64,000 nt of DNA from Stropharia rugosoannulata (lineage: Eukaryota > Basidiomycota > Agaricomycetes > Agaricales > Strophariaceae), in NCBI GenBank assembly GCA_028532985.1, contig JANCIK010000004.1, forward strand, positions 2,790,001 to 2,854,000. The letters run 5' to 3'. Position numbers and translations under genes: made by a program. Shown piece by piece: positions 32,538 to 59,033 of this stretch (position 1 is the stretch's first letter; each line of letters opens with the position of its first letter). A model generated the notes under the pieces. It saw only the letters and a program-made list of their open reading frames with translations, was not told where the DNA came from and searched no databases.

Positions 32538-32545
32538 TAGAGTAT
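32538..32545. repeat. Left copy of proposed 8-bp target site duplication
   Basis: TAGAGTAT immediately precedes the left terminal repeat region. An identical octamer immediately follows the right end at 59026-59033. Confidence 0.55.
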
Positions 32546-32556
32546 TTTGTAGGCCG

Positions 32557-32570
32557 CCAGCGGACATAAT
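32557..32570. repeat. Left terminal inverted repeat core
   Basis: CCAGCGGACATAAT, read inward. The reverse complement of 59003-59016 is CCAGCGGACAAAAT. Confidence 0.65.
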
Positions 32571-32579
32571 ATATTTCGT

Positions 32580-32840
32580 CTTCGGGATTTCAATTTCGGC
32601 TTCAGAAAATTGACTTTAACTTCGGCAGCACGGACTTCAACTTCGGCAGCACTGATTTCAACTTCAGTTTGACAGTTTCAACTTCAGTTTGACAGCTTCA
32701 ACTTCAGTTTGACAGTTTCAACTTCGGCTAGTGCTAATTTTAACTTGAGTTTGACAGCTTGACTTCGGCAACTCCATTTCAACTTCGGGTTGACAGCTTC
32801 AACTTCGGCTGTGCTAATTTTAACTTCGGCTAAACCTCGG
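32580..32840. repeat. Left subterminal repeat array (TTCAACTTCGG-like)
   Basis: Roughly a dozen imperfect units with the core TTTCAACTTCGG or TTCAACTTCAG, spaced by about 15-25 bp, including several TTTGACAG spacers. The same units occur in opposite orientation at 58.85-58.99 kb. Such arrays usually serve as transposase-binding sites. Confidence 0.8.
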
Positions 32841-33233
32841 CACTGGTCGAAGTGCTTCTCTTTTTATCGAAGCTGCAAAGCTGGAAGAGACCAAGTAAGG
32901 CCCAGTCAGTGACTACAGCTACTCAAACCCGTGTGATATACTCTACAAAGTGTATGTAACAACGTCCCCATAAATATAAGTGTTAAATAGATGGCACCTT
33001 ACATTTGCCTTGCATGCCTGGAGAGACAAAGTAAGGGATGGTCAAGCCCGGTGACTGAGTTGAAGATGCAAAGCGTGCTGGATCAATAAAAGCTTGATAA
33101 AGAAAGTAAATAAGACAGCCCATAAATTTGTTAGAAAACAAGTCAGGGACTTGCAGTCACAAGGTACAGAGACACGGCCTTATGTCGCAGACCTGAAGAA
33201 ACCGAATGGGGTCGGGTAGTAGGATGTTCTCAA

Positions 33234-33240
33234 TATATAA
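33234..33240 (+). promoter_or_regulatory. TATA box of the integrase-core gene
   Basis: TATATAA lies 110 bp upstream of the proposed start codon, with a pyrimidine-rich stretch between. Confidence 0.5.
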
Positions 33241-33349
33241 ACCTAGACTCTCAGACGTTTTATACCCAGGCTTATTTTTCAGAAAACATCTTCTGTATCC
33301 CCTTGCACCCTGATATCCGCTATCTCTCGCTTTCATTTAAATTTCACAT

Positions 33350-35151
33350 ATGTCCCTTGTTCAGCACAATCTTCAAGTCCGATTTCAAGAGCTAGGGCGC
33401 ACAGTGGATATAGCCCTCCAGACGCAGTTAGGTGACGCTGCCAGGCTAAATGAATGTAAAAGGCAATGTTTACAGTTTCTTGGCCTCTTGCAAGCGGTAA
33501 GAACTTACATCTACATTAATATAAATTTATAATGTTGCTGAATGCATCAAAGAATCCATCCGGGTTGTCGCTAAATGATATCAATACCATGACATCTAGT
33601 GTCGAGTGTATGGTCACCGCTTTAGAGCAAGGCGTCACATCATCCCGAGACCCTCCCGATAGACCTTCTTTGCCACTTGGTGGAACGGTTTCTTCTAATG
33701 GTCAAGTTGGACGTCCCTCTATTGACATTCGTCCAGAGGACCTTGAGCTGCTCGCTAGGGGCCGCACAACTCTCACAGCAATCGCTGAAATATATAATTG
33801 CAATGCAAGAACAATTAGGCGCCGTCTCCTGGACTATGGTCTTTCTGAGCCGGGACCACCTGTCTACACCCCACAAATACAACCTAATGGAGAAGTACGC
33901 CGTGTTTACTCTGCCGGAAGATCCAGTAATCTTTCCCTTCTAACTGATGATGAACTTGATGAAATTATGCTCCGCATTTATGAGCAATTTCCATCGTTTG
34001 GGAGAAGGATGATTGATGGCTATTTTATGTCTCTTCAGGAAAGGGTACCCAGACGTCGAATTCAAGAATCATACCATAGAGTTATTGGCCCTCCTGTTGG
34101 TACTTTTGGTAACCGGCGCATTCAACGCCGTGTCTATTCTGTCCAGGGACCAAATTCATTATGGCATCATGACGGGCAGCATGGTAAGGTTTGATACCTG
34201 TTGATGAATATAATGACCCATACTATTAATTAGGTCTAATACGCTGGAAGATTGTGATACATGCCTTTATTGATGGATATTCTCGCTTTCTTGTTGGAAT
34301 AAAGGCCAGTAACAACAACCAAGCTGCGACAGTGCTTGAGCTTTTTGAAGCAATTGTTGAGACGTTTGGCTATCCAAGTAGAGTGCGTGGCAACCATGGG
34401 ACAGAGAATTTGTTGGTTGCTGGAGTGATGGAGCAGATCCGAGGCGAAGGATGCGGATCATATATATGGGGAAAGTAAGTATCACAAATGAACTCAAGGA
34501 CGTGCTATTTACTCACTTGCAGTGGTAACTAGAAGTGTTCATAATATTCGCATTGAGCGTCTTTGGGTCGATATAACATCTGGTTTTGGAGCTAAGTGGA
34601 AAACATTTTTTGAAGTCATAGAGGCAAACGACGGACTAGACACAAACTCTGATGCACATATCTGGCTCTTGCATCACCTTTTTCTCCCAGCTATTAACAC
34701 AGATGCTAGGACATGGACGGAAACCTGGAATAATCACACATTAGCCAGACGATCTCAGGAACATAGGTCACCATCCCAAATGTATGTTCAAGGCATGATT
34801 CACCAAGGAGTACGAGGGATCCATGTGCAGCTAGCAGAAGAGGATGTCAGGGATGTTCAAGAGTATGGCATTGACTGGGATGACATTCACCAACCTCGAA
34901 TTCGCCAACACCATGATGTCCATAACCCTATACTAAACGAAGGAGTAGACGATAATCCCTTTGTTATCAATCAGCCTACTCGCCTTTCCCATATTGATGT
35001 TCCAGATACCCGTTGCCCATTCACTCCAGAACAAGTAGCCTTCCTAGATACACAGCTTTCCCGTATTCCTACTTTCCATTTAAAAGACATGAACTCTCGT
35101 CGTTTGACCTGGATAGAGGCTTTAGCAATTGCTACTAATATCTTTAGATAG
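33350..35151 (+). CDS. Integrase core (rve/DDE) domain protein of a eukaryotic transposon, active-site Asp replaced
   Basis: Four exons (33350-33496, 33553-34183, 34234-34474, 34533-35151) give an uninterrupted 545-residue protein. An N-terminal coiled region is followed by a helix-turn-helix-like segment (LTAIAEIYNCNARTIRRRL, about residues 121-139). The integrase core then has WHHDGQH (Asp256), IRWKIVIHAFIDGYSRF, the block YPSRVRGNHGTEN and SVHNIRIERLWVD (Glu348). Related proteins, as I recall them, have RGDHG in the third block; here the codon at 34392-34394 is AAC, so the middle Asp is Asn313. The rest of the protein is preserved, including the C-terminal RSPSQMY block. The protein should cut and join DNA ends if active; the substitution predicts loss of catalysis. 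Confidence 0.85.
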
Positions 35152-36868
35152 TCATTTACTGTATAAATTCTGCAGGGGATGAAGGTTCCTTTTCTTAGAT
35201 GATATGCCGGTTGTGGTAGTAAAGTCAGTCAAGTTTTTAACAGGAAGAACATCAGAGCACACCTGCAAGGCCCAAGACTACTAGTATGCCTGGCGCAGCA
35301 ATGCCGGAAACGGCCTTGGTCTTCTGAGCCTTTTATTGGGGCGACGCGAAGTCAGCCCTGCTAGTGGCAGACGCGTAGTCTATACCACCTGAGTGAGACT
35401 TCTGGACGACGCAAAGTCAATCCGACAGTGCCATTGGGAATGGGAGAGCCTGAGCTTGTGCAAAGGGGAGGTAGCCGACAAGATGGAACACGGGACACAC
35501 GGTAAGTAGCCGGACGTGGCATGCTGTTTCAATCTCAGCTTGAAAACAATTTGTATGTTGCAAGGCCGACATTTTCAAATAAGCGCCCATCACGGAATTT
35601 ACCGAGGAGCAAGCGCTTATTTCCTGGTCAGATCCTCTGTCAAATATATGCTGAAGGCGAACACCTTGGGGAATGAGAAAGCATTTAAATCAATTTATTT
35701 GACAGTGTCTAGAGGCTAATGATATGTATGCTGAGGTTTATCGACTGGCTACTAATAAATTACAGGAGTGATTGCACATTCCTGTCTGTTTCTTGGCTAT
35801 GCTGGATTTGGAACCTGATGTGAGAGGGGTAAAGGCTCCGGAATGAGCCATGTGAATGTCCTTTGACGGGCTTGAGGTGACAGCAGGGCGCATAGAAGCT
35901 GCTATTATTTGATAACCATGTAATGGGCATTACACATGTTCTACGCAGAGAGGTATGGTCTGAATATCGTTACATCCACTGCGCTGCTACTCGCGACTTG
36001 AAAGGAATGGCTATCTTCTGTATCTCTTCATCTGGATCTATGTGTGTCTCTCAAGATACCGCCTCCGACCTTCGGTCATAGGCTGATCTTGCTGAGCCCA
36101 GACGGATCTAAAATGCTGTGTTAACAGCCCGCTGCTCGCTTTATACCTCTTGGAATTCCCACTGAACGACTGGGAAGAAATGTCCATGATATCTTCGGAA
36201 GTGCTATCTTTGTAAGATCATATAGAAATAGTCTTGTTCGTCTTTTTCAAGTAATATTCTGTGTTATAGATCAATGACGGTGAGATTTTAATGCTCCTCC
36301 AGAGGTCATGCCTGTTTAAGAAAGCACGCACCGGGACGGACTTCTGTCTGCAAATAAGAATGAATGACGTTTGTGCGCGTGGCCACCTCGGAAGTGATAG
36401 GAGTCGAATCGGAACCTTGATAATCAGCAAGAAGCAGAACCTATATCCTGGAGTAAGAGCAATCCTACCAAGTCACAACGGATCAAGGTTGAAGTTCACT
36501 GTAAATTCAATGCGTATCAGAGCGTGATTGTCATATGTAGGTACTATAATACATGTGGCGTAACAAACCGAGCCAGAGAACCAAAAGAGAAGCCACGAAC
36601 TAGCGTTGGGGCCAAACTGGAAAAGGGTTAAGGGGGTAGATGGGCGTGCGTAGATCGTAGCTAAAATCGAGACCAAAGATGTGTCAATGGGGGTTATGCA
36701 ATGCAGTCCATACGGTCCATAAGTGTCCAGCAATCCACTGGATTGCGATGATGATGTGCGCGTTTCCGTTCCGGAGACCATATTATGTGCTTGGAGTGCG
36801 GCCGAAGGCGTTTATCTTCCACTGTCTGGCACTTTCAAACATTAGAGTCGGTCGTGTCGGCCGCTTGT
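35152..36868. other. Non-coding stretch inside the giant element, no gene seen
   Basis: Contains the left inverted array of the nested 3.4-kb unit and then sequence with no supported gene. Short opposing frames at 36218-36530 and 36473-36781 include hydrophobic stretches but no recognisable domain. Confidence 0.4.
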
Positions 36869-38750
36869 TCATTGACAGTTATTAAAGCATGATGAATGCG
36901 CTAAGTGCACCGAGACAAAGAAGAGCGTTGTATCCTCCAGGACGGCGCGCTGAGAGAGGGTACCGGAACCCAGAGCAGTTGATGTCCCCGAAGATGAGGA
37001 ACTGGATGTAACCGTAACAGGGACAGTTGCCGTGCTTTGAGCAGCGCTGCTCGTAGAGCTGTCCGTGGGCTTGACTTGCGTGGTTACTGATCCCGTAACT
37101 GAGCCTGTCGAAGAGTCGCTGTTAGTAATACTTGTTCCAGTAAATGGTGGCGAGGGCGGGTTTGGGTCTGTGCCGGTGGGCGAAACAGTCGGGGTAGTCA
37201 GGTTCACACTAGAAGTGCTGCTTTGCGTAGTCGAAGAGGCAGGCAACGAGGATGAAGTGTTTCCACCTGGCGCCGAAATACGTGTAATGGAGAACGCAGG
37301 GCTTGTGTTACCCGAGTCGCCGAACACTGATGAAGATGTGATTATTAGATGTTCATTTATTCAAAATAATACCCATGCACTTACAGACAATAAGATAGTC
37401 ATCGCGGGGGGACATTCGGAACAGTGACGTTCACACTTCCATCAGTGATGTTGAAGTTCTGCGCGAGAGGGTGATCTGTCGAATAAGAGACATGTCAGTA
37501 CAACGTTCGTTATCTCCGTGCGTCTGTCAACGGCGTTAGTGCAGATATGCACGTAATCGCAGGAGTGTGTAAATACACTGCGCCTAGTGCTAAGCTATAT
37601 CGCACATGGAGACCATATACGCGACTCCAAGCTGAACAAACTGGACAGGCTCCATGGGGTGAACATCATGGGCTCTAACCTCTTCCACAGCGTCTAGCCT
37701 ATGCATAAGCATGCAAGGTAGACATGATTCCTGTGCAGGCTACATGACCTTCACCAACTGGAATGCTCGGAAGAGGCAGCCGAAGGGGCATATATGCGGT
37801 CCAATGGCGCTCACTCGCTGCCTGCAACTGGTTGGTGCTTGATATGTGCCAACTCTCGTCATCCAGACGGGCCTTAGCGAGCTGCTATCCGGCAAGCCCA
37901 TTTCTTGTAATGCATTCCGCTCGCCGGCGGAATGATAACAGCACCGACGGATCATGCATGATAAGTGTCAGATAAAACTACTTACTAAAGTCAAGGTTGA
38001 GGCTGTCGTTGGCCTGGAACCCCAGTATGACCTGACCCAGTATGTTCGTGATCTGGGAGACGGGCGAGAAGTTGGACGTGTCCCTACAAGATAACAGACA
38101 AGTTGTTATTCGCCATGTGCCGCAGTATGGACACGCATCAAGTCACTGTCTGGACGGTCCCAATTGGCCATACCGACTCTGCATTCGGGCTTGTGATTTT
38201 GGGAGCAATGACGTCCCGGCGGACCAAGGGAGAAGCCAAGGTGGGGAGGGCGAGGGCAGCGCCTAGTACAACGGCCAGGGGGCGGAGGAGGCTGCTGAAC
38301 GTGGCGGGCTCGTTGGTTAGCGTCGTGGACGTGGAAGGAAGCGTCAAGAGGACCATATGTTTCGTTGTCGTTTATATATGGATAGTTTCACCAAAATGCT
38401 GAGTCACATGGGGTCTCCATGTTCTAACCGAATGTCCCGACGAATTCAAGCGGAGCTTGAAATGACTCAAAGAGTCGCGTGGGCGATGTTCATCACTGTT
38501 CCTTCTACCCCGTCGCTTGCCATTCTACCCCGCGTCTCTCTTTATCTCTCCCTGACGACGCACAACCTCAATACGCGCCTTATCCGCTGTCCCGACTTGG
38601 CTACAAAGACCACAACCACGCAAAGAAGAACAACGATCACTGCCAATAAAAAGTGAGTTGCTGTTCTGCTGCTCTGGGATTGACTTCGCGTCGTCCCGCC
38701 TGGAATGACTTCGCGTCTTCCACCTCAAAGGGTTAGACTTTGCGTCGCCC
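35338..38750. mobile_element. Nested 3.4-kb unit bounded by inverted three-unit arrays
   Basis: 35338-35423 holds three units of the type GGGCGACGCGAAGTCA, GACGCGTAGTCTA and GGACGACGCAAAGTCAATCC. 38677-38750 holds the same three in the same order on the other strand. This is the architecture of a small DNA transposon or a rearranged end pair. The unit encloses the KRE9-like pseudogene. No target duplication is obvious at its edges. Confidence 0.5.
36869..38356 (-). pseudogene. KRE9/KNH1-like GPI-anchored Ser/Thr-rich cell wall protein, disrupted
   Basis: Exons 38356 to about 38137, 38083-37986, 37475-37385 and 37326-36869. The N-terminus has a signal peptide (LRPLAVVLGAALALPTLAS), then the Kre9/Knh1 N-terminal domain (ITSPNAESVWPIGTVQTV, then WDTSNFSPVSQITNILG, NFNITDGSVNVTVPNVPP, LFGDSGNTSPAFSITR). 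A long Ser/Thr tail follows. Three lesions are visible. The first donor reads ATGCGT instead of GTGCGT after the half-codon for Trp, giving an early stop if unspliced. A six-C run in exon 3 shifts the frame before the DDYLIV block. The hydrophobic GPI-like C-terminus (LGALSAFIML) is in a different frame from the Ser/Thr tail. Family members bind or organise beta-1,6-glucan; this copy probably does not function. Confidence 0.75.
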
Positions 38751-40126
38751 ACTTTTTCGGACCAGCGGCGACACAGTGCAGGCCGTGCAGAGGGTTGGAC
38801 CTCGCTGCTCCCGCTTGTTCTTGGACCCGCGACTCACCCGGACACACTGCCCTGGACGACAGAATTCAACCAACACTTACGAAACTACGCTAGTATAGTT
38901 CGACATGACCGTTGTAAGGCCTGAAGACCTTCGCAAAAGCCCGGAAATTCTCCTGAAGCAGGCGCAGCCATGGATGCGTATGTTCTTGCATTGCTCTAAT
39001 ATCTTTTGCATGTTAACCGACGTTTATTTAGCTATTTCTGATGCCTTTACTGGCAAAGTGGGTGCTGTAATTAACGAGGGCACGCACTTCATGATTTCTC
39101 CCAACATGGACTACATTCCTCATCCCTCAACCACCTCCACTACAACGATAAAGATGGACTGCCGATGGGGCGACAGGGATCCTCTAAACTGGCCTGACTG
39201 TTACTATGAATACAATTGTCACTTCCCCGCCATCCCACAACACCGGCCTGGGCTCGATCTTGCAAAAGACGACGACGCTGTCGTACACATTGACTTCTCG
39301 CCTGATTTTTTTGTATCGGTTTCGACCACCCTGGCTGGGTTAGGCCATCTGCGCTCTGATGTCTTGTGTGCCATACGCAAGGTGCTTTCAAAATATCGAG
39401 ATGACTGGGCAAAAATCAAGGAGCAGCAGGGCAGCAGGACGCCGTTACTCTCTATACTTGCTCAGAATCTGGCCCGCGGCGTTGATCTCCTGGAGCGACT
39501 GCCGATGTCAAGAAAGCAAGTCCAGTTCCTCTTTCGATTTTACCAGCGACAAATGTTGGAGGCCATGGCTCTCTGTCATTATCTTCTTGTCATAAAACCC
39601 AAGATGGAGGAACTAGAACCAGACTTGGCAAGAGCACAGCGCGAGCCAGAGGAGCTAATGGGCGCCGTATTTTATAATCCACGCTTTGCCTATGCGTTTT
39701 GGAGAGCTGCAGTTCCTGTTTGGATAGTGTTTCCAGCTAGCATGGCTGGCTCCATACGCGTTGACAAGCTTGTGCAGCCTAGATATAGTCAGGAAGTCGG
39801 AATAGAAATGGTTGACCATCCAGCACACAGCAGCGTTTATTTTTGTGGAAGCGATCCGTTGGAGAGGTACAAGTTCATGATGGAATACGCGCGGCGCTAT
39901 CTTACGGGGTCAAACCCTTTCCACATACCTACTGGACCCTCCTCAATGGGCGCCTTGGGCACACTTACAGCTCCATCTACATCGGCATCTGAGGCCTCAT
40001 CTTCACATGGCGGCCCAGTGCGCACTAGGAAAGAAGCCTCATCTAGAAAATCCGGACCCTGTATGTGTCTTACTCTTAATCTCACCTTATATGTTCTCAT
40101 CGTATGATAGACGTCAAGTCCATCAC

Positions 40127-42989
40127 GAAAATGACTTTTGATCGGAGGGCACTTTAGGAAAGTGCGATCAGATCATCAATTGATGGGGCCTTTAACTACT
40201 TTAGGATGTCATGAGATGCCTTGGCATGTCCTGGCATGCCCTGGCATGCTTTGAATTTCCATGCAACGTGGGGAAATAAAGCCAGCTTGAACGACTTTTC
40301 CCACCTTCATTGTTGATTTTCAAACATTAAAATTATACACATTATGTGGGTGACATGCCCATTTAAGTACTTCAAATAGTGCGATAATTTGATTATGTAA
40401 GCCTATCCAATATCGCACTAAGTCGACTAAGTCCTCTAAGTTCACTTGCACTTCACTCTCATGTTCCCCACTCCCCTTCCTCAACTTTTCTTGTATGCTT
40501 AGGCTCTACTCTACTCAGGTAGTTCTTGATGGCTGCTACCTTGTTGGATCCTGACCTGGGCTTAGGGCAGACAAGGATGGATCATGGAATGGGCCTGTTC
40601 CAATAGAGATTGCTGTATATCGTCGGAACGGTGAACCGCATTATAAAGCGGTTTTTTGGTACGTCTTTAGCTCAAATATGCGTTTCTAACGCACCCAAGA
40701 ACACTCCAAACGAACCAGTATTTGACGTGCAAACTTAGCACCATCTGGAGATCCCTATTGGTACAGTTCACCATTTCCCTTCTCATCCGTTTATTCCGAG
40801 CCCTCGGTCGCCCCAGATTCATAATGTGGGCAATTATGCGATTCTAACGAACTCAAGACCGAAGATTTTGGATGTCTGGAAGGCCAGAACCAGCTATGTC
40901 TCTCTCCTTCCCCTGTTTTCCGATGTTTTATCGGTTTTAAAGGTATGTATTGGGTTTATTGCATCGTTCTTTTCACATATGAGCTCCTGAAGATTAGGGT
41001 ATTCTATCGAGTACTTGAACGTTCGATTCTGACGCCTGGAAGCCGTCCAACTGTGATGTGCTCCTCCTGCCCCTGGACTGCCTCTGCTTGTAAGTGCCAT
41101 AACTCCGGATCCTGTCCACCTTCACTCTCAATTCTTTTTGAACCTTCAAGACCATCTTAGTCCTCTGCCAACCGTCTCCAAGATCATGCCAATTCATCCT
41201 GTACTTGCCAAGTATCATCTTATAGGTGTCAAGTCCCCTTTCACCACTTTCTATCTTGTCCGTTTCCTCCGAGCCCTCGGTTACCGCATATTCATATTGT
41301 GGGCAATTATGCGATTCTAACGAGCTCAAGACCGATGGATTTGGTTGCCTGGAAGGCGAGAACCAGCTATGTCTCCCTCCTTCCCCTATTTTCCGATGTT
41401 TTATCGATTTTAAAGGTATGTGTTGGATTTATTGCGTCGTTCTTTTCACATATGAGCTCCTGAAGATTAGGGGATTCCATAGAGTGCTTGAACGTTCGAT
41501 TCCGACGCCTAGAAGCCATACAACTGTGATGTGCTCCTCCTGCCCCTGGACTGCCTCTGCTTGTAAGTGCCATAACTCCGGATCCTGTCCACCTTCACTC
41601 CTAATTCCTTTTGCACCTTCAAGACCATCTTAGTCCTCTGCAAACCGTCCCCAAGATTATGCTAATCCATCCTGTACTTGCCAAGTACCATCTTATAGGT
41701 GTCAAGTGCCCTTAGGACGCATTTTCCCTCATATATCTGTCAATACCCGGCCAAACAGTATGATTTCTGCATTTCCTGGTTCGTCTCATTAATACCTATC
41801 GAACAGTACCATTAATTGCGCGATTTGACAAGCTTGAGGGCGATCTCACTCTGTGTGTCCTCCTACCCCTAGGTGGGACAAATTAATTCATAGGTGCGCT
41901 TCTAGATGTCCTGAGTGTCTCAAACTTTGGGAAAACTTACTCAACTGCATAAGGTACCCTCTGCTGTGACGGATTAATTTTTGGGGCCACCAAGCGTCCT
42001 TCATCTCAAGTTGCTAGTCAACTTCGGAGTTTCGGAGTATTTCTTTGATTCTGACATAGGTTCGTCTCCAATCTCCTTAATTCTTTCTATGATGAACTCA
42101 CCTTGATTGTAGCTTTCTAACAAGCCCTCAAACACTATATATCGTCACTTAGAATCCAAAAATCCGCCATGTGCTCCTCCTCCCCCTCCCTCCTCCAGGT
42201 AAAGTACTTCATATCTTGGGTTCCTGTTTGTATTTTTGGCTAATTCTTTTTGGAGTCTTTTACTATAGATATGTATCGACTAATCGACCAGTTTATGGCG
42301 TCCGATACGCCCTCAATATCCGATGTCCCTATTGACCATATGACTACTATTGCAGAGTTGAATATCATCTCCTTCCTTCAATTTTCAACAAAGGCTTTCG
42401 CAACTTGGCATGTTTATTCACCATTTATGTGGGGTTTGAACGCGTTCCTTACACAAATTTTGAGATTCCTGGATGCCTGTGAGTAGCCATGTCCTCCTCC
42501 ATCTCCCTGTCTTGGACTAATTTTGCTCTAAGATGGGAAATACTTCTTCAATTGCGTCGCGGTTTTTTGGAGCTTCTTCGTGTTAATTCAGGCTTTCTAA
42601 TGAGCCCCTGAACGCGTTATTCCGAGCAGAATTACCATCTTCATAAGCGCCCTATCACTGTGTTGTATTATATGTATCTACATGAATACTGTATTATCTA
42701 GTGTAGTTAGAGTCAATATATAACTTGTTTTTTATAAGAAGTTTGAATAGTACTTGTTAAATGGCATTATATATAAACATCTTTGAATGATACAAGGCCC
42801 ATCTGGTGGATCCTAGGATGCCTTGAGCTGCCCTGGATTGCCTTGGGAAAGTTGTACCTGGTAGTTTGCAGAGGGACCTTGCCCTGAGTGCACCTAAGGG
42901 CCCTGGCTGCTTTGCATGCCCTGGCTGCCTTAGGATCTCTAAGGCAGTGCCAGGGAGATACAAAGCCCCTGGGGACAAAAGTCATTTTC
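40127..42989. mobile_element. 2.9-kb TIR element inserted in the large unknown gene
   Basis: GAAAATGACTTTTG at 40127-40140 and its reverse complement at 42976-42989 form perfect 14-bp terminal inverted repeats, with further similarity inward (AGGGC). The element interrupts a coding exon just after a normal 50-nt intron ending at 40110. It encodes no protein I can recognise and contains a 473-bp tandem duplication, so it is probably non-autonomous. Clusters of TGGCATGCC-like motifs lie near both ends. No clear target duplication is visible. Confidence 0.7.
40787..41715. repeat. 473-bp tandem duplication
   Basis: Copy 1 (40787-41259) and copy 2 (41260-41715) share long identical runs, for example GTGGGCAATTATGCGATTCT at 40826 and again at 41299, exactly 473 bp apart. 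Scattered substitutions show it is not very recent. Confidence 0.9.
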
Positions 42990-43150
42990 CTGATGTCCTC
43001 CAACAAGTCTGCAGCAGGCTCAAGCGGGCGAGATAAATTCACGGATCTCCGGGATGATTTGTTGCCAGAAGCTGTGCCTGCATGGGCAGCCGCTCTCCTG
43101 AACGTGGATCGTAGCAGGACTCGGGCATCCTCAGGCCCTCCTGTTGGGTA

Positions 43151-43155
43151 CGCAC
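43151..43155. repeat. Left target site duplication of the LTR retrotransposon
   Basis: CGCAC directly before the 5' LTR; the same five bases follow the 3' LTR at 49329-49333. Confidence 0.9.
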
Positions 43156-43597
43156 TGTAAGGGGACGCTGTGCGTCACCCTTTATTTTTATTCATTTCGT
43201 CTTCCTTCACTTTCTTTTATTTTATTTTATTTTTATTTCTTACGCCGCGCGCTCGACCAGTGTACACTATGCTCTGCGAGTGTACTGTGCGCACAGGCGC
43301 GCGGTTTACATCATGTGACGTGCGGATGGGACGTCCATCATGTGTTGTGCATGATGTATGATGCACATCACATGAGGACGTGATGTGGTGGCTTCTTGTG
43401 GCGGATCAACTGATAGTTTATTCTCACGCATCAATCAACGCTTCTATGTATATGGCGCCCAGCGGGTTTCCTTAGGCTTTGTCTTCGGAATCCTCTGCTG
43501 GAGTGCGCTTCTATTGTATTTATAGTTTCTGACAATAAACTTCGGAATCCCTCTCTGGAGTCTCGTGAGCTCGACACTGCGCAGAGTCGCCCTGACA
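43156..43597 (+). repeat. 5' long terminal repeat
   Basis: 442 bp, begins TGTAAGGGGACGC and ends GCCCTGACA. It aligns over its whole length with the 3' LTR but differs by many small indels and substitutions. Confidence 0.93.
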
Positions 43598-43799
43598 GTA
43601 CAAAGCCTCTGCCTGGGACCAGTTTTGGACGCCTGTACTGCCTTCGGAAACGGCCTAGGACCCAACACCCCTCCTGCTTCGATGTCGATGGATACAGACG
43701 CCTCTGCAGCCCTGAGGCGAAATACCTTGTCCAGACCCGCCCTCACCCACGTCGCTTCTGGAGTACGTCGACCACAATAACGCGATTTTTCGGAAGGAA

Positions 43800-48240: not shown

Positions 48241-48865
48241 TAGTACATTGGAAGAAGCCAAGTCAGCGCTGGCACAAGGCCATGGCCTAGCTTCTCACAA
48301 CCGGCGACGTGACCCTCCCGGTGTACAAACCAGGTGACAAGGTCATCGGATGCGCTGGTCAGACATCCTGTATTCTCCCGTCCCTCCAAGAAGTTGTCCA
48401 CACCGTCTTCCTGGGCCGTATACGGTCGAGGCCTGCTGTTGGATCTCATGCCTACCGTCTCAAACTCCCAGTTTCTCTCAAGCGTCTCACCCTGTCTTCC
48501 TAAGTTGTCAAGCTCACGCCCTGTCTCCCTGACCCTATTCGGCCGCATTAGCGGCCTTCCTCCGGAACCTGAGCTGGTGGATAACGAGCTCAGTACGAGG
48601 TTGAGGCCTCCTCAACAGCCGCATCCATCGAAACAGGCTTCAGTTCCTCGTCAAATGGAAGGGGTATGGGTATGAGGAGAACTCCCGGGAGCATGCGGAA
48701 GACGTCTTCTCACTTTCACCGGCTGGTGGCCAAGTTCTACCGGGAACGTCACTGATACTCCATGATTATTGGCTCCTGGCAATTGAAAGCCTGGACGGCA
48801 GAACAGTCAATGGTGGCGAGTGGATCACCTTGCCACGCCGGGACGCCGTGTCTTGAAGGGGGTGA

Positions 48866-49328
48866 TGTAAGGGGACGCTGTGCGTCACCCTTTATTTTTA
48901 TTCATTTCGTCTTCCTTCACTTTTTTATTTTATTTTATTTTTATTTCTTTACGCCGCGCGCAGCCCGTGCAGTGTACACTATGCTCTGCAGTGTGTACTG
49001 TGCACAGGCGCGCAGTTTACATCATGTGACGTACTGATGATGGGACACGTCCATCGTGTGTTGTGCATATGATGTATGATGCACATCACATGAGGACGTG
49101 ATGTGGTGGCTTCTTGTGGCGGATCAGCTGTATAGTTTATTCTCACGCATCAATCAACGCTTCTATTATGTACTGTGGCGCCCAGCAGCCGGGTTTCCTT
49201 AGGCTTTTGTCTTCTGGAATCCCTCTACAGTGCGCTTCTATTGTATTTATAGTTTACAGCTTAATAAACTTCGGAATCCCTCTGCTAGGTCTCGTGTGAG
49301 CTCGACACTGCGCAGAGTCGCCCTTACA
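48866..49328 (+). repeat. 3' long terminal repeat
   Basis: 463 bp, begins TGTAAGGGGACGC and ends GCCCTTACA. It is 21 bp longer than the 5' LTR because of scattered small indels. Confidence 0.93.
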
Positions 49329-49333
49329 CGCAC
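49329..49333. repeat. Right target site duplication of the LTR retrotransposon
   Basis: CGCAC directly after the 3' LTR, matching 43151-43155. Confidence 0.9.
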
Positions 49334-50112
49334 TGCCAGACCCACTACTTTTTGTCACGCCCTCTACAGAGGCTCGTAAAGCGTTGTTTTTCTCGAACTG
49401 GCTTAGAAATCGCACTGCTCTTCTTTACCGTCTGAGTGCTCCCGACCTCAAGCCCACTCCTATCTCTAGCCAAATGTGGCGTGACTTGCTAGGATCCACG
49501 CCTGAGCCTGCAAATACACACGCGGCAAACGGGTCATCCACCCGTACTAGCAAGCGAAAGGAGGTTGTGCAGAACATCTTAGCAGAGTGCATAAGTGCCT
49601 TGGAAAATATCTCCATTAATTCAGACGGCCATACTCGCAGCGTTTGGTGGAAAGAAACAGAGATAAAGAATGGCAGTCTGCCTCCTTTAGCCCTGGCACG
49701 CGAGATTCTTTGGGAAATCTCAGAGGTCAGTTTCCGACTGGAGTTTGCAGGACTTGATCGAGAAGCTCGCTCCATCACAGCGCCAAAGGAGGCTCGAGAG
49801 GAAATGCTTGGGAAGTGTTTCTGTGAAGGGTATGCTTCCGTTGTTGTTCATACAGAAAATGCTCGCAAGGGCTTGCAGGCAGACTCTTGGATGGAAAAGC
49901 GGACGTATATCGCCAACTTCGGAAACGTCGTCTCAACGTGGAGCGGTTTCTCTGAGTATGCGTCTTTGAAAAGGTTCAAGTATCTCCCACTGCACCCGGA
50001 GGCCATGGACGAATCGACTACACGTGCGACTGAACATTTTTTGGTCTCTTTTTATTTACAGACATTTTATGATTTTTTTGGTAGACCAGCCACCCTTCTT
50101 CGACATTTGTAA

Positions 50113-51182
50113 TACTCTTGTAATCTGTAACATGGAGATAGGTCTGATTCGGAACCGATGCGATATGGCAGACAGGCCTCTTGCTGTTGAGCCTAGAAGT
50201 TACCTTGCGCATGATGTTTAGGGGGTTAAAGGATGCTTAATGAGTCTATCCCTTGGGCAGGAACTGCCTTTCTTGCTGTGCGTTTTAAGGAAGAAGACTG
50301 ATCGACTGGTGGAAGCGGAAGAGGTTCGACAACTTCTTCCACATTGGCAGCCTTCAGCATCAATATTTAACTCAATATATCTTGGTACACATGGTGCGTG
50401 CATTTTGGTGCACCCTCCCATTTAGATCCATTGATTCAAGCCCTAGTTTGATTTTTAAGATATTTCAATAACATGGCCTCCTACAGCATGCGCACAACGT
50501 AGACGCTCAAACTGTCTGCTGAGGGCGATTTTATTTTTTATTTTTAGATACTTGTAGTGCTGTCAGCGTCTCGAATTCTTGGCTTTCCGATTTACATCGC
50601 CAATCTGATACATCTATCACAGTTTGAATGAAGGCTCTGTTCTTGCCCTGACATATCAAGACCTCAGCTTCATCTGGAAGCCTTCTCCTACCTGCTCTGG
50701 GAGTATGAAAGTGCGGGGCCTATCAAGTTGAGCCTCCCATTTTTGTTCCTTTGCTCTGTTGTCGTTCTCAATTACCTCGTAGCTTGCTTAGTATGCCCCT
50801 GTCGGATGATGATGATTCCCCTTGCCGGCTCTGTGAATGTGCAGATCCTATAGCTATGGTGTGCCAACTCATCTGAATGCATACATATCAGTGCTAAAGT
50901 CTAGTAGCGCACCAATTTCTGTGTATGCGGACATTCTTTAGCTGATCATGGCCAGAGAATACCAATATCAACTCGATACTGTCCAAACAATTCTGCTGGC
51001 CAACTGTTTTCATCCCTGAATGAGATCCAGTTTGTTTCTGTACGTGAAAAATCATGGATCACTAGGTCTGACGATAACAATTATACAACATCTTACAGAC
51101 ACCTCAAGAACTAGCTTCCCTTACTTGCCAACTATGTCAGAGACCTTATTCTCATCATCCCAGAAACCGCAATCCACCCCAA
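50113..51182. other. Region between the unknown gene and the HECT-like gene
   Basis: No supported gene. A 61-codon ATG frame at 50240-50425 (LPFLLCVLRKKTDRLVEAEE) might be a small gene or an extra exon, but nothing else supports it. Confidence 0.4.
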
Positions 51183-54100
51183 ATGGGAGACCAGGCTTTT
51201 GGTCAACTTTCTCAGCAATCTGCAGCTGCTGGCCAGTCAAGTCGCCTTGCTATCCAAAATGCGACTGTATCTCCCGTTTTATCTCAAGCCAGGCTCATCA
51301 CTAATCATCTCTTCTCTGGACCGAGCCAATCTCAGCCAGCCAGCTCAACGTCCCTAATTGCCCCGTGGTTCCCATCTACCCAACCACAGCAGCAAAACCA
51401 AAACCGCATGCAAGCTGCCGAGCGCCATCGCCCAGTTCCAAGGCAACTTCCTTTCAATACGAGGGGGGTAGCCCTCAATCCATTGGGGCCATTACCAACA
51501 GTCACGCTTCCAAGTTCCAGTAGAAACTCTGCAAGACCTCGTGGTTCACAGACTGCAGCAGCGCCACGCAGCTCCAATAAGCATGTGGACTACACAATTG
51601 TCATAAACCCGGTACCAGTGCGTATATCTTTTGCTCTATGATCAAATACTGATTTATTGCAATGCTAGTATGATGGCTATACTATGAAGAATGGCAGAAA
51701 CATCTCTGCAAAGCAACTGCGCTTGCCAGGTTCTGCAGACTCTAGAAGATTTATCCAAAATGCAAAATCGATCAAGCTTTGCTTTCAGATCAAAACAACA
51801 ATTACCGACACTGAATTATCATTATCTGTGGTTCCTCTTTTTCAAAAACATCTTGACGAACATATGCGCGCTAATCAGCTCCGCTTGGAGAATTTAGATC
51901 CCGAAAACGACGAAGAGATGCCCTTATCTTTATCTCCTGCATCTGCAGCTGAACCAGACTGGGAAATTTATGCCGCGACAATAAAAGGTCGGGCAGGTTC
52001 AAAACCAATCCTCCATCGAGTCAAACGTCTCTCATCCTCTATCACTTTCTCTTATCTTGAACGCGAACATTTCAAAGAAAAAAACGCATACAACTTGATG
52101 GGCGCTCAAGTAACAACAGTGCTTTTTATACGTGAGCCATTTTGTTTAACTCCTACCGGTTTCTAATAAAGTCGTAGTGCCGAAACGCAGTATCATTCTG
52201 GGACCTTTAAACAACGATGACAAATACCACATCTGCCTAGTCTCGCGTCTGTGGTACGGTTTTCTGGAAAAAGTCTTGACACCGGAATGCGACGAAGACT
52301 GTGTTTCTCAGGATGGAGAAAGCGTTGTAAGTTTTACTATTGCCTCTCTTACAATGTGGTGAACAAGTCTGTGATAGGAATTGTCTGCACCTCCTACTCC
52401 TGAGGCTGACGCTCTTCCCATTCCTGAGGTTGATATGCCTCTCATTCCTGAAACCGGCACCCCACCTGAAACAGTGGACCCTTACTTCAATGATGAGGTC
52501 GACTTTGCTCAACTCCTCAGGGAGTTTTACTTTTCTTTGGATTCCATGGCCATCTCGGAATGCCTTTATTCACAGCGTTTTTATGTTCAAGCACAAAGCG
52601 CCTCTGACGCAGCTGACCAGCTCTACAATGCTCTTTTTGTGTATTGTTTGGGCCCTCAACCTGAGCAACTCCAGCCGCCAGTCTCGTCCAACAGCAATGG
52701 AACTTTAAGAACCTTGACGTCCCATAATCTCAATAGCCAACACGGCATCAAAGCCTCCATGTGAGTGAGACATCCTTTCTACGCATCATTTGATATTCAA
52801 GTAGGCGCTCACTAGCGGCCCTGGTTCTGGAAATGGCCCCCTCAATGCCATGTGGGCGGCACTCTGGGCGAAGATCTTCCAGAATGAAAAGCACTGGGTA
52901 AAGACGTCAGAGGACAACTACTTTGTGCCGAGGAATCTTTTGCCTTCCACAGTAACACGTGCCGACATCCAGCTCTTTGTCTTTTACGGTTTGGTCCTCC
53001 GGCAGGCCCTTGTATGGGGACTTGATCCCCTTCCCTTGTCCCCTTGTGTCTTGGCCCTTGTTCTACAGGATGGGCTTGAAGGCATCGTTGATGATGCGTT
53101 CATTCAGAAAGTTGCACCCTCTTCTGCGCATCGCTTGCGGTCATGGCCTCCAAAGCGCGTATCGGTTAATCTTCCTGACGGATCCAGGGAAACTCAACTC
53201 GATCTTGTGAATGGTAGGGATCCAGTGACTCTTATCTATGAGTCGATTGAAGGTCTTGATGTAAGACATGAATTTGATTTTTATATCCCATGCTTATGTG
53301 CATCTAGATCTCTCAACTCCGAGCTCTTGATGATCAACAGTTGAATTCCCTCACACCATACTTGAAATACTGGACTCTCTTCCGGGTAACGACACGCGAA
53401 CCAGACGACTCAACGATTCTGAGCGTCCGTCACCCCTTTATCAAAGCGCTCCGTTCGGGATTCAGCAAACCTCATGACAGTGTCACTGATATCACAACTG
53501 TAAGTTTTCGTTTTTTTACATAGAACAGGCAAACTCAATGTGTGCAGATCTTTTCTGGTGCTATTTCGCCTCTACCGCTCATTTGCTCTTTGTATTGTGG
53601 TCGACAGTTTGTTGACCCTGCAGTCCTACTCGGAAGAATTTCCTATACAAACATAGGGCGGACTACAGCCGGCTACGACCCAGAATTTCCATATAGATAT
53701 GCTGTCGTTGAGGATCGATTCAGATGGATGCTTTCGCAGTATCTTCAAGGCCATGGCCATCCAGCTGGCTCCCTGCTTGTGGATGCAGAGGCAGAAGCGG
53801 CGAATCAAAGTGGCGAAGCCAGCTCATTGCATCGCGGCACCCTCTTCCTCCAGGGCACCACGGCCTGCAGATTCCTGCCCCTTGATCCTGACCAAAAAAT
53901 CCAAGTTAGTTTGCTTGTTTTTTGTTTGTTAATGTGCCCATGCTAATATATCTCATTAAGATTATCTTTGTGCCCGAGTTCCTTGACCCGCCCGCAGCTA
54001 CGAACGCGGTAAGATTTTGGCCAATCCTAGTGTTAGCAATTAACCTCTATTTGAAACAGGGGTATATGATTCGAACTTGCTTTCGCACAATGCATATCCT

Positions 54101-54230
54101 GATCAACGCTACCACAGCAGAGAATTTGTTCGCGGCAGGTCATGCAGAAGTCTCGCAAGAATGCCTTGATGCTTTCTATTGTTGGTTGCATAATGCTTTG
54201 CTTCACCCTGATACGTACAGCGACGTCTGA
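51183..54230 (+). CDS. Transposon-borne protein with a divergent HECT-like C-terminal lobe
   Basis: Nine exons (51183-51617, 51669-52131, 52172-52326, 52378-52760, 52816-53260, 53308-53499, 53548-53904, 53961-54008, 54060-54230) give an uninterrupted 882-residue protein. The N-terminal 145 residues are Gln/Ser/Pro-rich and disordered. The C-terminal half resembles a HECT ubiquitin ligase in order and spacing. IGPGSGNGPLNAMWAALW is like a HECT domain start. IQLFVFYGLVLRQALVWG is like the N-lobe helix, and GTLFLQGTTACRFLP is like the C-lobe strand. GYMIRTCFRTMHI puts Cys833 49 residues from the end, where HECT enzymes carry the catalytic cysteine. The HECT relation is inferred from pattern only. 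It is the only large gene of the element that still reads intact. Confidence 0.7.
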
Positions 54231-54888
54231 AGCTAAATTCTTACATATGCACCGCTCACCTGGTCTAATTATCAACCTAAATAAGTCTGCATGTCATAGT
54301 TTGTGAATCTGCTGTTGCTGGAGATGTATCAAGACACCTGTATTACTACCAAGACTCTCCAGGATGTCTTTTAATTAGAAAAACCTTATGCGATAATGGT
54401 CCTCAATAAAAGACCTCATACTGGCCAGGGCAGGTGGTTGGACCTGCGACGCATTTGTCGAGGTGATGATGACAAGGCAATCCCCCCCCCCTACCAGGAC
54501 ACCCTTACTACCCTACCCTTTCCCATCTTCAAACGACCATTGGGACGCACCCATCGCGCATCCGGCAACCCCTTTCATGATCGCCTCATAGACAAGACAA
54601 CAGAGCAGCCGTACCAGGACTCATATCCCGCTCCCATCCATCCAACGAAATGACCTCATTCACGGGTACGTCAGCCTTTTTCAGTCCAAGAGCTTCTCGT
54701 AAGAAGACGACGCGCTACCCGGAAGAAACAGAGCAATATGACGAACTGGAGCGTTCTTTTGCGTCAAATATTTCTTTGAACTCTCCGCCACGCGAACCTA
54801 TTGCCCTCGACATCCGCGCCAGCAGAAAAGGCTTTAACAAAATTTTCTACGACGGCTTCTCTCCGTCTGCGGCACCCGTATCATCGCG

Positions 54889-55490
54889 ATGCTCTTTCGA
54901 GTCACCATCCCAATCATCGTGTGCGCACTTCCTCTACAAAACGTAGCCCGCCTCTGGGGCTACATAAACTCGCTCGAGCTCCCGGTCTGGTTCCGCCCAT
55001 ATGGTTTTCGTCTATATACGTTCGCCTTGGGTCGCAATCTTGAAGAGGTAGAACACGATGACCTGCGTATATCCCTATCTCGGCGCGTTCTATCGCAACC
55101 TGAAGCCCGGCGCCCGTCCTGTAACCAAGCTATTCTCGTTTGTCCTTCTATGACAGTCTATCACCATAAACTTGAAACTCGAAACTCGATGCGGGGTCTC
55201 GGCCAGCGTCGTTCTGGAATCTCCGCAAGAAGCTGATACGGATGCCAATCCCAAGGGTCCACTCATTGACGACGCTGACTCAGAGCCATCTGCATCATCA
55301 TTGTCGCAGGCGTCTTCGTCCGGGAACTATCAGAAGCACAAGACGTGGTAGATCTTCGACACTGTTGGTATCCCGGGCCTTATTGTCAAGAACGACCCGG
55401 GGGAGATGGACATCGCCCCCACCCTGAACAGCAGTCCATGACCGACAAGGTCGTTCACGGCAGGTATTGATCCCTAGAGGACTTTGCGGT
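54889..55490 (+). pseudogene. Phosphatidylserine decarboxylase-like fragment
   Basis: The frame at 54889 encodes VARLWGYINSLELPVWFRPY followed by GFRLYTFALGRNLEEVEHDDL, matching the segment near the membrane anchor of mitochondrial PSD1 enzymes. The expected next block, YPYLGAFYRNLKPGARPV, follows in another frame. AILVCPS comes in the original frame again, so two shifts are present. Downstream coding-like sequence is stopped in frame by TAG at about 55349. The catalytic LGST region is absent, so this is a dead fragment. Confidence 0.65.
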
Positions 55491-56765
55491 ACGTGCTTGA
55501 CCAATTACGTTGCCTCACCTTGCCACTCCACTGACACGCCGCCCCTGTTACAGTCCGACCTCAAGCTTGTAACGAACAACGCGAAATTCGTCGTTTTGTA
55601 GGCACATTTGCACCAGCCGTCGACTCCTGGTCAGTAAAATAAAGGATACCGACATCCTAAGTCTCTTACCATAACATTCTGAGGTTCTAGCACAGAATTT
55701 TTCGTGTACTAGGCAAAGCTTAGTATACTGCATGTCGTCCTGTGGTATCGGTTAGGTTAGGCTCTACCCAACAAGCAGAAAACATAAGTATGGGTCGGCT
55801 GAAGGCTGGCAATAACTACACGGGCTGACTGTCTGGAGTAACCAAGGGCGGACTCAGATCCACACTGGCTCGCATGGTCGCCGCAACTCGTATCACGCAT
55901 GCGGGTGCCCTCTGTAATACAAAAGTAATTAAGCTAGAATGTACCTTGAAGACGAGAGCTTACGGATGTGAATGGGGTACAGGTCGCAAATCGGCCGGAT
56001 GCAAGGATACCCCCAAAAGTCAAATGCGCCAGCGTTCTCGTGCATCCGAAGTGGAAGAATTTCTACATGACAGTGCATATCATCGTGTTGGTGCGGTGCA
56101 TGGTGTAAACGCTGCCTATGCTTCGAGGCTCGAACTGAAGACGCTGGTAGCCCCGACCCCAGGCGGCCTTCCTCGTGTGCATGGTGCCCTGCCAGCATGA
56201 CTTTTCCTGTCAAGAACATAACGCGCCCGCCGCCTATGGCGTCCTCTTCTCGTGCATCTAGCAGTGGCCTACTACGTGGCACCGTCTCAACCTGCTTCTC
56301 CAGTGACATACAGCGCCTGAGCAGGGCTGCGCTGGGGGACATCTGCTGACCCGCAGGCGTCATGCAACCGCGTACCGGCACAGCGCGTCGTCGGCACAGC
56401 AGGGGCAAATGAGGGGGCTGCCTGCGCCGAACGATGTATCTCTGTGTGCACGTATATTGCCGTATGCAGGCAATACCTCATTCTTCTCCAGCCTGCACTC
56501 ATCCTCCGCCTTCATTTATTCGTTCAATTATGTTTATTGGACGCCATTAATCTCCAAGCCATTCCACCGCGGACGGTCCCTCCGCGACGGGGAATGACGA
56601 CAAATTGCGTGTGGGGCGAGCGTTCGATTTAATTTTACATAATTGAATGGGTTGGACAGCCTGCGTCTGGCGGCCGCCTTGTGCACGAAGATCTCATTAA
56701 GTCCAGCGGTCGTGTGCTGCAAGTATATGGCGGACAAGACGATCACGACAGTTGCAAGCTGGGAC

Positions 56766-57114
56766 GCAGCCGTATTCACGATCTCCTCGACCTGCTTCGA
56801 GGAGCTCTCAAGCAGGACCTCGAGCTCTTCGTGGTCGTGCTCCTCGCGCAGCCGGTGGTCGTCCAAGTCCAAGTCCGCATCCATGGCCGCCTCCCCTGCA
56901 TCTGCCTCCTCAGAACCTAACGCCGACTCCAAGCCCTCGGGCCTCTCACCCGCGCCCGTGCCCACACCCACACCCAGACTGCTCGTGCTGGTACTCGCAC
57001 CAAGCGGCCTGACGCCCTCCCTATCCGTACTCACACGGCGCTTCTTCTTCTCAGCCAGGTACATCGGGTCCATGTCCCGTCCTGGCTCAGCACTTCCGTT
57101 ATTGCCTCTTCGAC
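56766..57114 (-). pseudogene. MRS2/CorA-type magnesium transporter fragment
   Basis: Begins after an acceptor (CTTATAG) and encodes DMDPMYLAEKKKRR, a Ser/Gly-rich insert, then DHEELEVLLESSSKQVEEIV. In mitochondrial MRS2 proteins the DM..MYL.EK segment is followed by EVEMLLES and then the two membrane helices with GMN. Here the similarity stops at about 56766 and no GMN motif follows, so only a middle exon survives. Confidence 0.55.
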
Positions 57115-57830
57115 CTATAAGGGGAGCAAAAGGTCAGCGTTGGCCTTACTTCAAACATCCAAACCTCAAAACATCGAAACATCGAAAAGGCGCGTTTCAG
57201 CGGCCCGGCACAAGATAAAAAAGAAAGTCCGCGAGCTGAGCAGCTCATACCGTGGTCGTGGAATGGGTCCAGTGTGTCTGGGACATGGATTACAAAAAGC
57301 CCGGGACACGCAAAGACAGGCTGCTGGATCTCGAGAAAAGGGACAAAAGGTCAGTCCCTGCCAGTATAAAGTCAGAAGAGTAGACTCACAGGAATGCCCC
57401 ACAGCACGGCGTGCTGCTCCTTCCCTATCACTCGTTGTCGTTATTCACCCTCCTGAGGTCTTCTCAGCGAGATATGTCCTCGGCCTGGATGGTGCGGACG
57501 TGTGTTGGCATTGAAGGTACGTGATCCCATTGTTTGGATCTCACTGTCTTGTAACAGGGATTCGCAATGGATGGACCTGGACAGACGCTGAGGAGGAGGG
57601 CGTAGAATTTGTGGAGGGTCTCGAGAAGCCTGCGGCTGAGAGGTTACGACGGTGGTGAAGTGCTTCAAGCTGGAGACGCATGAACGCCAGCCAATCATGT
57701 GTTGTTCAGGGCGTGCTTCGTTCACTGAAGTCACGTACGACGGCCGCGAGTCACTGTATGAAGACCCCACTAGTAAGTCAATTTAGTCAACTCAGGATTT
57801 AACTCGCTCATCTCCCTTTCAGAAATAACT

Positions 57831-58391
57831 ATGTCATCATTTAGCCTCTACTTACCTCAGCACATCTTGTCCTCGCCTTCACCCGCTTCTGCAAAAAAGC
57901 GTGTACGCGCTAGTGAAGTGTTTCGCAAGGCGGTATTAGAGGTTTTGCCCGATATCGACGCACAGTTAGGTCATCAGGAATGGTATGTTGTTATCTTGTG
58001 AATTTTTTTTTTCGTTGTGAAGTGCTCTGTAAATCTGAATACCTTTGCTTGTATACCAGTCGGCCATGCCTCCATTTTTCAGATACATCACCTGGCGGAT
58101 CTCGCCGTACGCGTTACGCGCCCTTGAAAGTCAACCGGGCTCATTATACGGCTTTCGGCTACGTCTACGACGACAGCTTAGGTGTTCTTATTGAGTCGTG
58201 GTGGATGCATGTTGACGACGACGAGAACGTTGAACATGGGGTCCACAAGCAAGGATCACGCAATTGGAAGAGGCAGATGGAACTTGGAGGTGTAACCTTC
58301 CTTGATGTACGTTGGTTTGTTCGTCCTTTTCACATTCGTACTAAACAAGTCATTACAGGGACCGTTTTCGCCTAACTGTACTAAACAATAG
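57831..58391 (+). CDS. Small hypothetical protein
   Basis: Three exons (57831-57982, 58060-58306, 58359-58391) with GT..AG junctions and closing phase would encode 143 residues, starting MSSFSLYLPQHILSSPSP and ending DGPFSPNCTKQ. The middle contains a dense aromatic/acidic patch (IESWWMHVDDDENVEHG). No family is recognised. A different acceptor at 58081 would give another C-terminus. It lies at the right end of the giant element and may be cargo or chance. Confidence 0.4.
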
Positions 58392-58411
58392 GAACTCATC
58401 TAATGCACTAG

Positions 58412-58565
58412 TCTGTTGCTTTCTTCGTGTATTCAAAATTCTGTCTTTCTTGTTACAATCATCAGTTCTTTTCCTTTGTGTAATCAAAATTATATTGATC
58501 TTGTCACATTCGTCTGTTGTTTTTCTTTGTGTAATCGAACTTATGTTCATCTTGTTGCAATCTAC
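58412..58565. repeat. Three-copy imperfect tandem repeat
   Basis: About 50-bp units with the pattern TCTGTTGCTTTCTTTGTGTA then TCAAAATT, and TTGATCTTGTTGCAATC at the end. The copies differ at many positions. Confidence 0.75.
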
Positions 58566-58844
58566 TTCATGTATCCACGTAAATAAATGATTTAATGTCC
58601 ATAGTGTATTGCGGGAATATCATACAGGAAGTTGAAGAGATATATGACAAAAGTACTCGACATACATTCATATAAACAAATTCAGAACAGACCCAAAATA
58701 TTTCCTTCATTAATCTATATGGATAAATAACGTATTGCCCATAGTGTAACAACCTTTGCGTGCGCATGGACTTGCGAAACGGCAGCGAGGCACTCGCGAG
58801 GTCCCACTGCGCCGCCTTGATCGCGATCTATAAGATCTGAGGTC

Positions 58845-58990
58845 AGCTGAAGTTGAAACTGAAGTTATGAAGTCAAAAGAGCAACAAAAGAGCTTGAAGT
58901 CGTGAAGTTGAAGTCAACATTTTGAAGTCGAAGTTGAAATGATGAAATCGAATCTGCCAAATTGAAACTCCGAAGTTGAAATCAAAACCG
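58845..58990. repeat. Right subterminal repeat array
   Basis: Repeated GAAGTTGAAGTC and CCGAAGTTGAAAT units, the reverse complement of the TTCAACTTCGG units at 32.58-32.84 kb. They place the right terminal repeat in inverted orientation to the left one. Confidence 0.8.
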
Positions 58991-59002
58991 TCAAGCCCAA
59001 TA

Positions 59003-59016
59003 ATTTTGTCCGCTGG
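59003..59016. repeat. Right terminal inverted repeat core
   Basis: ATTTTGTCCGCTGG, followed by GGCCCCCCA and then the octamer TAGAGTAT. Confidence 0.65.
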
Positions 59017-59025
59017 GGCCCCCCA

Positions 59026-59033
59026 TAGAGTAT
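59026..59033. repeat. Right copy of proposed 8-bp target site duplication
   Basis: TAGAGTAT, identical to 32538-32545. Confidence 0.55.

Follow-up and report, generated by a model that had tools for sequence, protein, structure and literature searches.

Fungal transposons of the IS3EU class are marked by TATGG..CCATA-type ends and 6-bp target site duplications (PMC12730594; PMC10045372, section 3.3), and a terminal TA is called constant for complete families (PMC10045372). Plants provide the best-described cases of inverted-repeat transposons that shuffle pieces of host genes (PMC8903248), and TET/JBP genes are accessory genes in fungal transposon superfamilies (PMC12730594). Here, we analyze a 64,000-nucleotide stretch of Stropharia rugosoannulata DNA (C4:2790001-2854000 of a 48-Mb genome; hereafter, the window). 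It holds an element with a predicted transposase gene, a split accessory gene, a large orphan gene, and pieces matching host loci elsewhere. We judge, with a probability of roughly 80%, that it is a cut-and-paste transposon of the IS3EU class that has turned into a 26.5-kb mosaic.

The limits of the element are set by copies elsewhere in the genome. Its first 143 bp and its last 194 bp both have matches in the same two other regions, each on the minus strand (C2, ~264.5-268.0 kb; C6, ~1194.8-1198.4 kb), which prove to be short elements of 3,553 and 3,528 bp whose starts and ends are exactly those of the window element. These are 98.5% identical to each other (99.2% over aligned columns). A sequence-only reading of the window had suggested a search for further copies with the same ends, and because these two 3.5-kb elements share the end pair, the two ends belong together. 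Comparison of the flanks across all three copies gives a 6-bp duplication in each (GAGTAT, GCTTTG, and GTTTTT), the flanks of the short elements having just 6 bases in common, and this defines the element as 32546-59027. The octamer that had been reported abutting both ends therefore survives as a direct repeat but not in its length; the last two bases of the element, TA, are met by a chance TA in the left flank, and the other copies rule the octamer out. For a 5-bp duplication, with an element ending in CATAG, three left flanks would need to carry a G by coincidence ahead of the duplication, and 6 bp is favored. None of the frames in one of the short elements (L014) was recognized, the longest stop-to-stop frame being 150 amino acids.

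The inverted termini match at 16 of the 21 outermost bases and at 20 of 30 overall, and the terminal cores described as identical at 13 of 14 bases are indeed present, at positions 12-25 inward. The inverted subterminal arrays of one repeat family are likewise borne out: TTCAACTTCRG, allowing one mismatch, has 16 sites in the window, where 2.38 would be expected, with 10 on the plus strand in the left array, four on the minus strand in the right array, and two elsewhere. Between these ends, the gene described as an integrase core encodes a protein matching Pfam rva_4 (PF24764; E 1.8e-63) and rve (E 3.2e-8); helix-turn-helix matches fell below the Pfam cut-off, and no zinc domain was matched in Pfam, which agrees with a transposase of the IS3EU type, marked by a DDE core and the lack of an HHCC zinc motif. 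At E <= 1e-3, it has 549 relatives among 5.8 billion proteins. The best-scoring of the 120 listed is from Arthromyces matolae (58% identity), and the organisms in that list are, judging by their names, mushroom-forming fungi and class mates. In the columns of the catalytic triad, the window protein has D256, N313, and E348, where the listed relatives have D in 114, D in 119 (with one gap), and E in 111. Since the second catalytic Asp reads Asn, catalysis by the window protein is doubtful though its frame is open. A DDE transposase, a single end pair, and a target duplication together support the claim of a mobile DNA transposon.

A related transposase is encoded at six other places in the genome, two of which are at C7:1636 kb and C13:2071 kb. 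Ends were examined at the remaining four. All four elements measure 5.6-6.4 kb, start with TATGG, and end with CCATA; duplications flank three of them (6 bp, CATACG; 6 bp, CGGCGC; 7 bp, AACCATG), and the fourth has a palindromic flank without a direct repeat. The window family has CCATA at the right and TTTGT at the left in three of three copies. Judged by these sequence features, the window element belongs to the IS3EU class but has an off-type left end, the link from rva_4 to IS3EU resting on the ends and duplications of the four related elements rather than on a Repbase comparison. The sequence-only reading knew of no described fungal element with this combination of genes. The class turns out to be described (PMC12730594; PMC10045372; PMC10853768), but its gene content here goes unmentioned in the titles and abstract openings listed by the literature searches.

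The four related elements also have features of their own. Those at C8:327409-333770 (L016+L017) and C2:149362-155665 (L018+L019), 6.3-6.4 kb long with ~709-bp inverted repeats, are 98-99% identical in aligned blocks. The C8 copy lies within an inverted duplication whose 1,825-bp arms are 100% identical, which explains its lack of a direct duplication. The other two, C8:3404314-3410254 (L020+L021) and C7:3184999-3190577 (L022+L023), have 6-bp duplications and, downstream of the transposase, carry more frames in the same orientation; in the C7 element, these open with a Cys/His-rich stretch that looks, by eye, like the start of the window orphan gene.

Much of the interior of the window element is a patchwork of 13 pieces that match 11 host loci on nine contigs at 72-96% identity. 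Eleven of them, matching nine host loci, account for ~2,845 of the 4,591 bp of the block 54240-58830 (72-90%), and the remaining two (91% and 96%) lie in the block 35150-38900 besides stretches of a tnp2-type module discussed below. Twelve pieces have one other match each and the 176-bp C11 piece has two, all lower bounds. The C4 and C7 pairs are adjacent in the element, whereas their matches are separated by 424 and 1,242 bp; the second C7 fragment overlaps an MRS2-like transporter frame at its match. Matches were read for six of the 13 pieces, at four of the 11 loci. Frames at three of these four loci carry a Pfam name, one of them below the cut-off, and two C4 frames carry none. At each of the 15 gaps in the six pieces, it is the window that has lost sequence, and C>T/G>A differences outnumber the reverse by 73 to 46 (p 0.017). 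Because both patterns fit a decaying copy in the window, host-to-element copying appears the better direction for these six pieces. What the sequence-only reading took for dead host-gene pieces includes these 13 matches.

Helitrons nested in the element offer another route to such fragments, as they are well-known collectors of gene fragments in plants and animals (PMC4289320). We find this route highly improbable. In the block 54240-58830, no high-copy end shows up, two matches being seen for the 176-bp C11 piece alone, and two separate Helitrons would be needed; moreover, the same paper reports that the helitrons of P. ostreatus do not capture host fragments. Helitrons are marked by TC..CTRR ends with a hairpin and by the lack of a duplication, and the window element, taken as a whole, has inverted repeats with a target duplication.

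One supposed host piece reads differently. The open reading frames 38899-40104 and 49300-50109, which the sequence-only reading divided between its large unknown gene and its dead pieces, are adjoining parts of one gene in its paralogues. The genome has seven other near-full-length copies, and the four at C14, C9:2687k, C11, and C12 lie ~4-10 kb downstream of a Transposase_21/tnp2 match on the same strand. The C10, C13, and C9:3009k copies have none nearby among the 19 such matches in the genome, and none of the 19 falls inside the window element. Clusters of GACGCGAAGTC, plus then minus, precede the gene in C11 and C12 also, and C14 and C9 have matches to these stretches as well. Across the window as a whole, the motif is not enriched over chance (18 sites, where 15.7 would be expected), and only its clustering is telling. 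The split gene appears to be an accessory gene that tnp2-type transposons carry, borrowed by or nested in the window element, which would remove it from the gene set first proposed as the element's own. Transposons of the tnp2 type are Plavaka/CACTA-like. One stretch, C11:1099001-1114700 (L054, L034, L055), looks like a multi-gene member, with a tnp2-type transposase, the accessory gene, and a long repeat frame rich in Lys/Arg/Ala in line. A stretch close to both a C7 transposase match and a short match of the accessory gene (L053) has no DNA match to the window.

Two nested elements interrupt the accessory gene. The first, 2,876 bp long, has copies at 39 other places when 40 of 140 candidates are scored; CATCA..TGATG ends like its own are given for PlavakaB (PMC12730594). 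A 474-bp tandem duplication lies inside it. The second is a 6,173-bp retrotransposon whose two long terminal repeats (LTRs) have 46 differences over 436 aligned positions (10.6%).

The orphan gene forms one fully open frame across 10 introns of 40-59 bp, each GT..AG. No second copy of it was found in this genome. Among the 5.8 billion proteins, residues 230-976 found no homologue at E 1e-3 (7994 candidates scored) and residues 573-760 none at E 1 (457 candidates), in searches that need shared 5-residue words and that diverged relatives may escape. Neither this gene nor the split accessory gene was found in ten stretches around the 3.5-kb elements and the four other transposases (L014-L023), and no other copy brings together the three genes that the sequence-only reading had combined. 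That reading called the orphan gene HECT-like, and its protein does show, by eye, some resemblance to HECT landmarks in a GPG segment, in YFVP, in a helical stretch, and in IRTCFR at the terminus. Profile and structure comparisons gave this no support. Pfam PF00632 (HECT) was not matched at E up to 10, with HMMER filters dropping most weak matches, and no HECT chain appeared among Protein Data Bank (PDB) matches at E up to 10. A rough, unvalidated profile built on six of this genome's own HECT genes, intron read-through included, did not report the orphan protein, though it reported 261 of 2,000 shuffles; on a bilobal HECT fold with a catalytic Cys, structure models of two pieces were uninformative (mean pLDDT 33 and 42). 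That the transposon uses this gene as a HECT-type ubiquitin ligase is, in our estimation, rather unlikely.

Base composition bears on how long the orphan gene has resided here. The CpG depletion figure over the genomic span is 0.67 for the transposase gene and 0.73 for the orphan gene, compared with 0.99 for the fragment block, and both spans lie below every like-sized, overlapping host-flank window (minimum 0.71 of 170 and 0.81 of 154, respectively). The depletion common to the two genes would fit long residence in a methylated transposon, but is suggestive only.

A rival account concerns the age of the mosaic. A small IS3EU element, comprising the transposase and the orphan gene and perhaps 6-10 kb long, may have inserted at a silent site where the tnp2 module, host fragments, and nested elements were added later by insertion and break repair, so that the mosaic never moved. 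This account has the IS3EU core in common with the one we favor and differs from it only in when the pieces entered; we give it somewhat less than even odds. It is consistent with the one large copy found, with the 5.6-6.4 kb of the four other IS3EU elements, and with the catalytic Asn. The 91% and 96% fragments also point this way: they sit between two GACGCGAAGTC clusters that are ~0.5 kb apart in a C11 paralogue and so would have entered an existing module. However, the flanks carry ordinary-looking frames, whereas fragments from nine contigs lie within the element, to the left and to the right of the orphan gene. An element that has moved, L014, likewise holds a few joined pieces, ~0.9 kb apart at a match, but this parallel is weak, as repeated loci are matched.

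Several further points weigh against our preferred reading, that of an IS3EU-class transposon turned mosaic. Only one large copy was found, so that its parts may not all have moved together, and all copies come from one assembly. The left end starts with TT rather than the TA called constant for complete IS3EU families (PMC10045372). The search scored only the best candidates, which is why one other match per piece is a lower bound, and ordinary host segments of this genome may show a patchwork of this kind too. CpG depletion is no fixed mark of the class, at 0.77-0.92 in the four other IS3EU elements and 0.92 in the 3.5-kb ones, which leaves a weak case for long residence of the orphan gene. 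Finally, the 96% fragment, at 4% divergence, looks younger than the Ty3-like insertion with its 10.6% LTR divergence, and some capture may therefore have happened in place.

If the preferred reading holds, the transposase would bind to the repeats of the subterminal arrays, cleave at both ends, and insert the element at GAGTAT. Breaks or gaps inside the element would be repaired from other chromosomal templates, pasting in host fragments through filler or template-switch repair, and the accessory genes would serve the element rather than the host. With Asn in place of its second catalytic Asp and with its accessory gene split, the window copy is probably dead. Movement of the 3.5-kb elements was probably in trans, through either the window transposase before the Asn change or a relative outside the assembly. 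A broader proposition is that mushroom IS3EU elements collect host fragments in Pack-TYPE fashion with their own transposase and trade accessory genes with tnp2 elements, the orphan protein being a very diverged, ubiquitin-ligase-like transposition helper; taken together, we regard this as very unlikely.

Table 1. Features of the window element, in window coordinates
Feature	Position	Strand	Remarks
Left target site duplication, GAGTAT	32540..32545	.	Same as 59028-59033; length set by two other copies
Whole element	32546..59027	+	26,482 bp; end pair common to two 3.5-kb elements elsewhere in genome
Left terminal inverted repeat, TTTGTAGGCCGCCAGCGGACA	32546..32566	+	16/21 bases pair with right end
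Left subterminal array	32589..32829	+	TTCAACTTCRG-type repeats, spacing mostly ~20-21 bp
Transposase gene	33350..35151	+	4 exons, 545 aa; spliced frame open; splice sites hand-picked
Transposase exons	33350-33496, 33553-34183, 34234-34474, 34533-35151	+	Predicted model
GACGCGAAGTC cluster of tnp2/accessory-gene module	35343..35418	+
Host fragment	35909..36115	.	C3:3620461-3620667, 91%
Host fragment	36115..38387	.	C9:804114-806405 (-), 96%
Upstream region of accessory gene	38528..38898	+	Inverted GACGCGAAGTC cluster at 38682-38746; 86-88% to C14, C9 copies
Accessory gene, first open piece	38899..40104	+	402 codons; adjoins second piece in paralogues, e.g., L032-L035
Nested high-copy element, CATCA..TGATG ends	40121..42996	.	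2-bp duplication TC; PlavakaB-like ends
Accessory gene, short middle piece	42997..43155	+
Nested Ty3-like LTR retrotransposon	43156..49328	+	Duplication CGCAC; gag/RT frames; family name by eye
Accessory gene, second open piece	49329..50109	+	67% to C14, 66% to C9 paralogues
Orphan gene	50793..54230	+	11 exons, 976 aa; predicted; splice sites hand-picked
Two joined host fragments	54529..54907	.	C4:2751671-2751956, 88%; C4:2752381-2752482, 90%
Host fragment	54923..55162	.	C3:3710756-3711001, 90%; match 31 bp from phosphatidylserine-decarboxylase frame
Host fragment	55176..55432	.	C5:577408-577713 (-), 72%
Host fragment	55436..55585	.	C12:226255-226404, 90%; within frame with sub-threshold bromodomain match
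Host fragment	55697..55818	.	C10:1986445-1986570 (-), 83%
Two host fragments joined gaplessly	56009..57222	.	C7:632963-633753, 90%; C7:634996-635482, 84%
Host fragment	57324..57503	.	C12:1271075-1271253 (-), 80%
Host fragment	57561..57687	.	C6:1917732-1917862 (-), 87%
Host fragment	58139..58314	.	C11:347825-348000 (-), 74%; C11:102082-102257 (-), 73%
Right subterminal array	58847..58980	-	Inverted
Right terminal inverted repeat	59007..59027	-	TATGGGGGGCCCCAGCGGACA reading inward from end
Right target site duplication, GAGTAT	59028..59033	.	Identical to left one

Outside the element, ordinary-looking host frames lie on both sides, in agreement with the sequence-only reading. With names assigned by eye, those on the left are SNZ/PdxS-like and aldehyde-dehydrogenase-like. 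Directly to the right, three glutathione-S-transferase-like frames stand in tandem (59613-62599).

Among known systems, Starships, the giant transposons of fungi, are similar in spanning tens of kilobases with cargo inside. The window element differs from these in its inverted repeats, its 6-bp duplication, and a DDE transposase in place of a tyrosine recombinase, for which no specific search was made. Gene capture in fungi as such has reportedly been described already (PMC6710886; PMC5148889). With tnp2-type (Transposase_21) transposons, the window element shares the accessory gene and its upstream repeat clusters, a module that follows tnp2 genes in this genome. This would add, after TET/JBP (PMC12730594), another accessory gene occurring in two fungal transposon superfamilies.

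The closest relatives are IS3EU elements (Repbase; fungal members in PMC12730594; Styx in PMC10853768), which resemble the window element in their DDE integrase-type transposase, 6-bp duplication, right CCATA, and further genes beside the transposase. Its left TTTGT, its 26.5-kb length, its large orphan gene, and the host fragments inside set it apart. IS3EU termini are TA..TA, and TAYGG..CCRTA in TET-bearing Pucciniales families, a pattern that the right end fits and the left end, in all three copies, does not. No alpha-kinase or TET domain was found among the element's frames scanned with Pfam, and in place of the intact IS3EU triad, the window copy has D256, N313, and E348. Titles and abstract openings listed by literature searches included no IS3EU element with captured host fragments and no combination of HECT or ubiquitin with IS3EU or with fungal or basidiomycete DNA transposons. 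In this respect, there is a parallel with the Pack-TYPE elements of plants (PMC8903248), which likewise have terminal inverted repeats, a target duplication, and several joined host fragments. Pack-TYPE elements are non-autonomous and moved in trans. The window element differs from them in being fungal and of the IS3EU class, in carrying a transposase gene, albeit with a changed catalytic residue, and in being represented by the one large copy found; with its 13-piece patchwork, an element of this class would widen the range of transposons in which fragment capture occurs.

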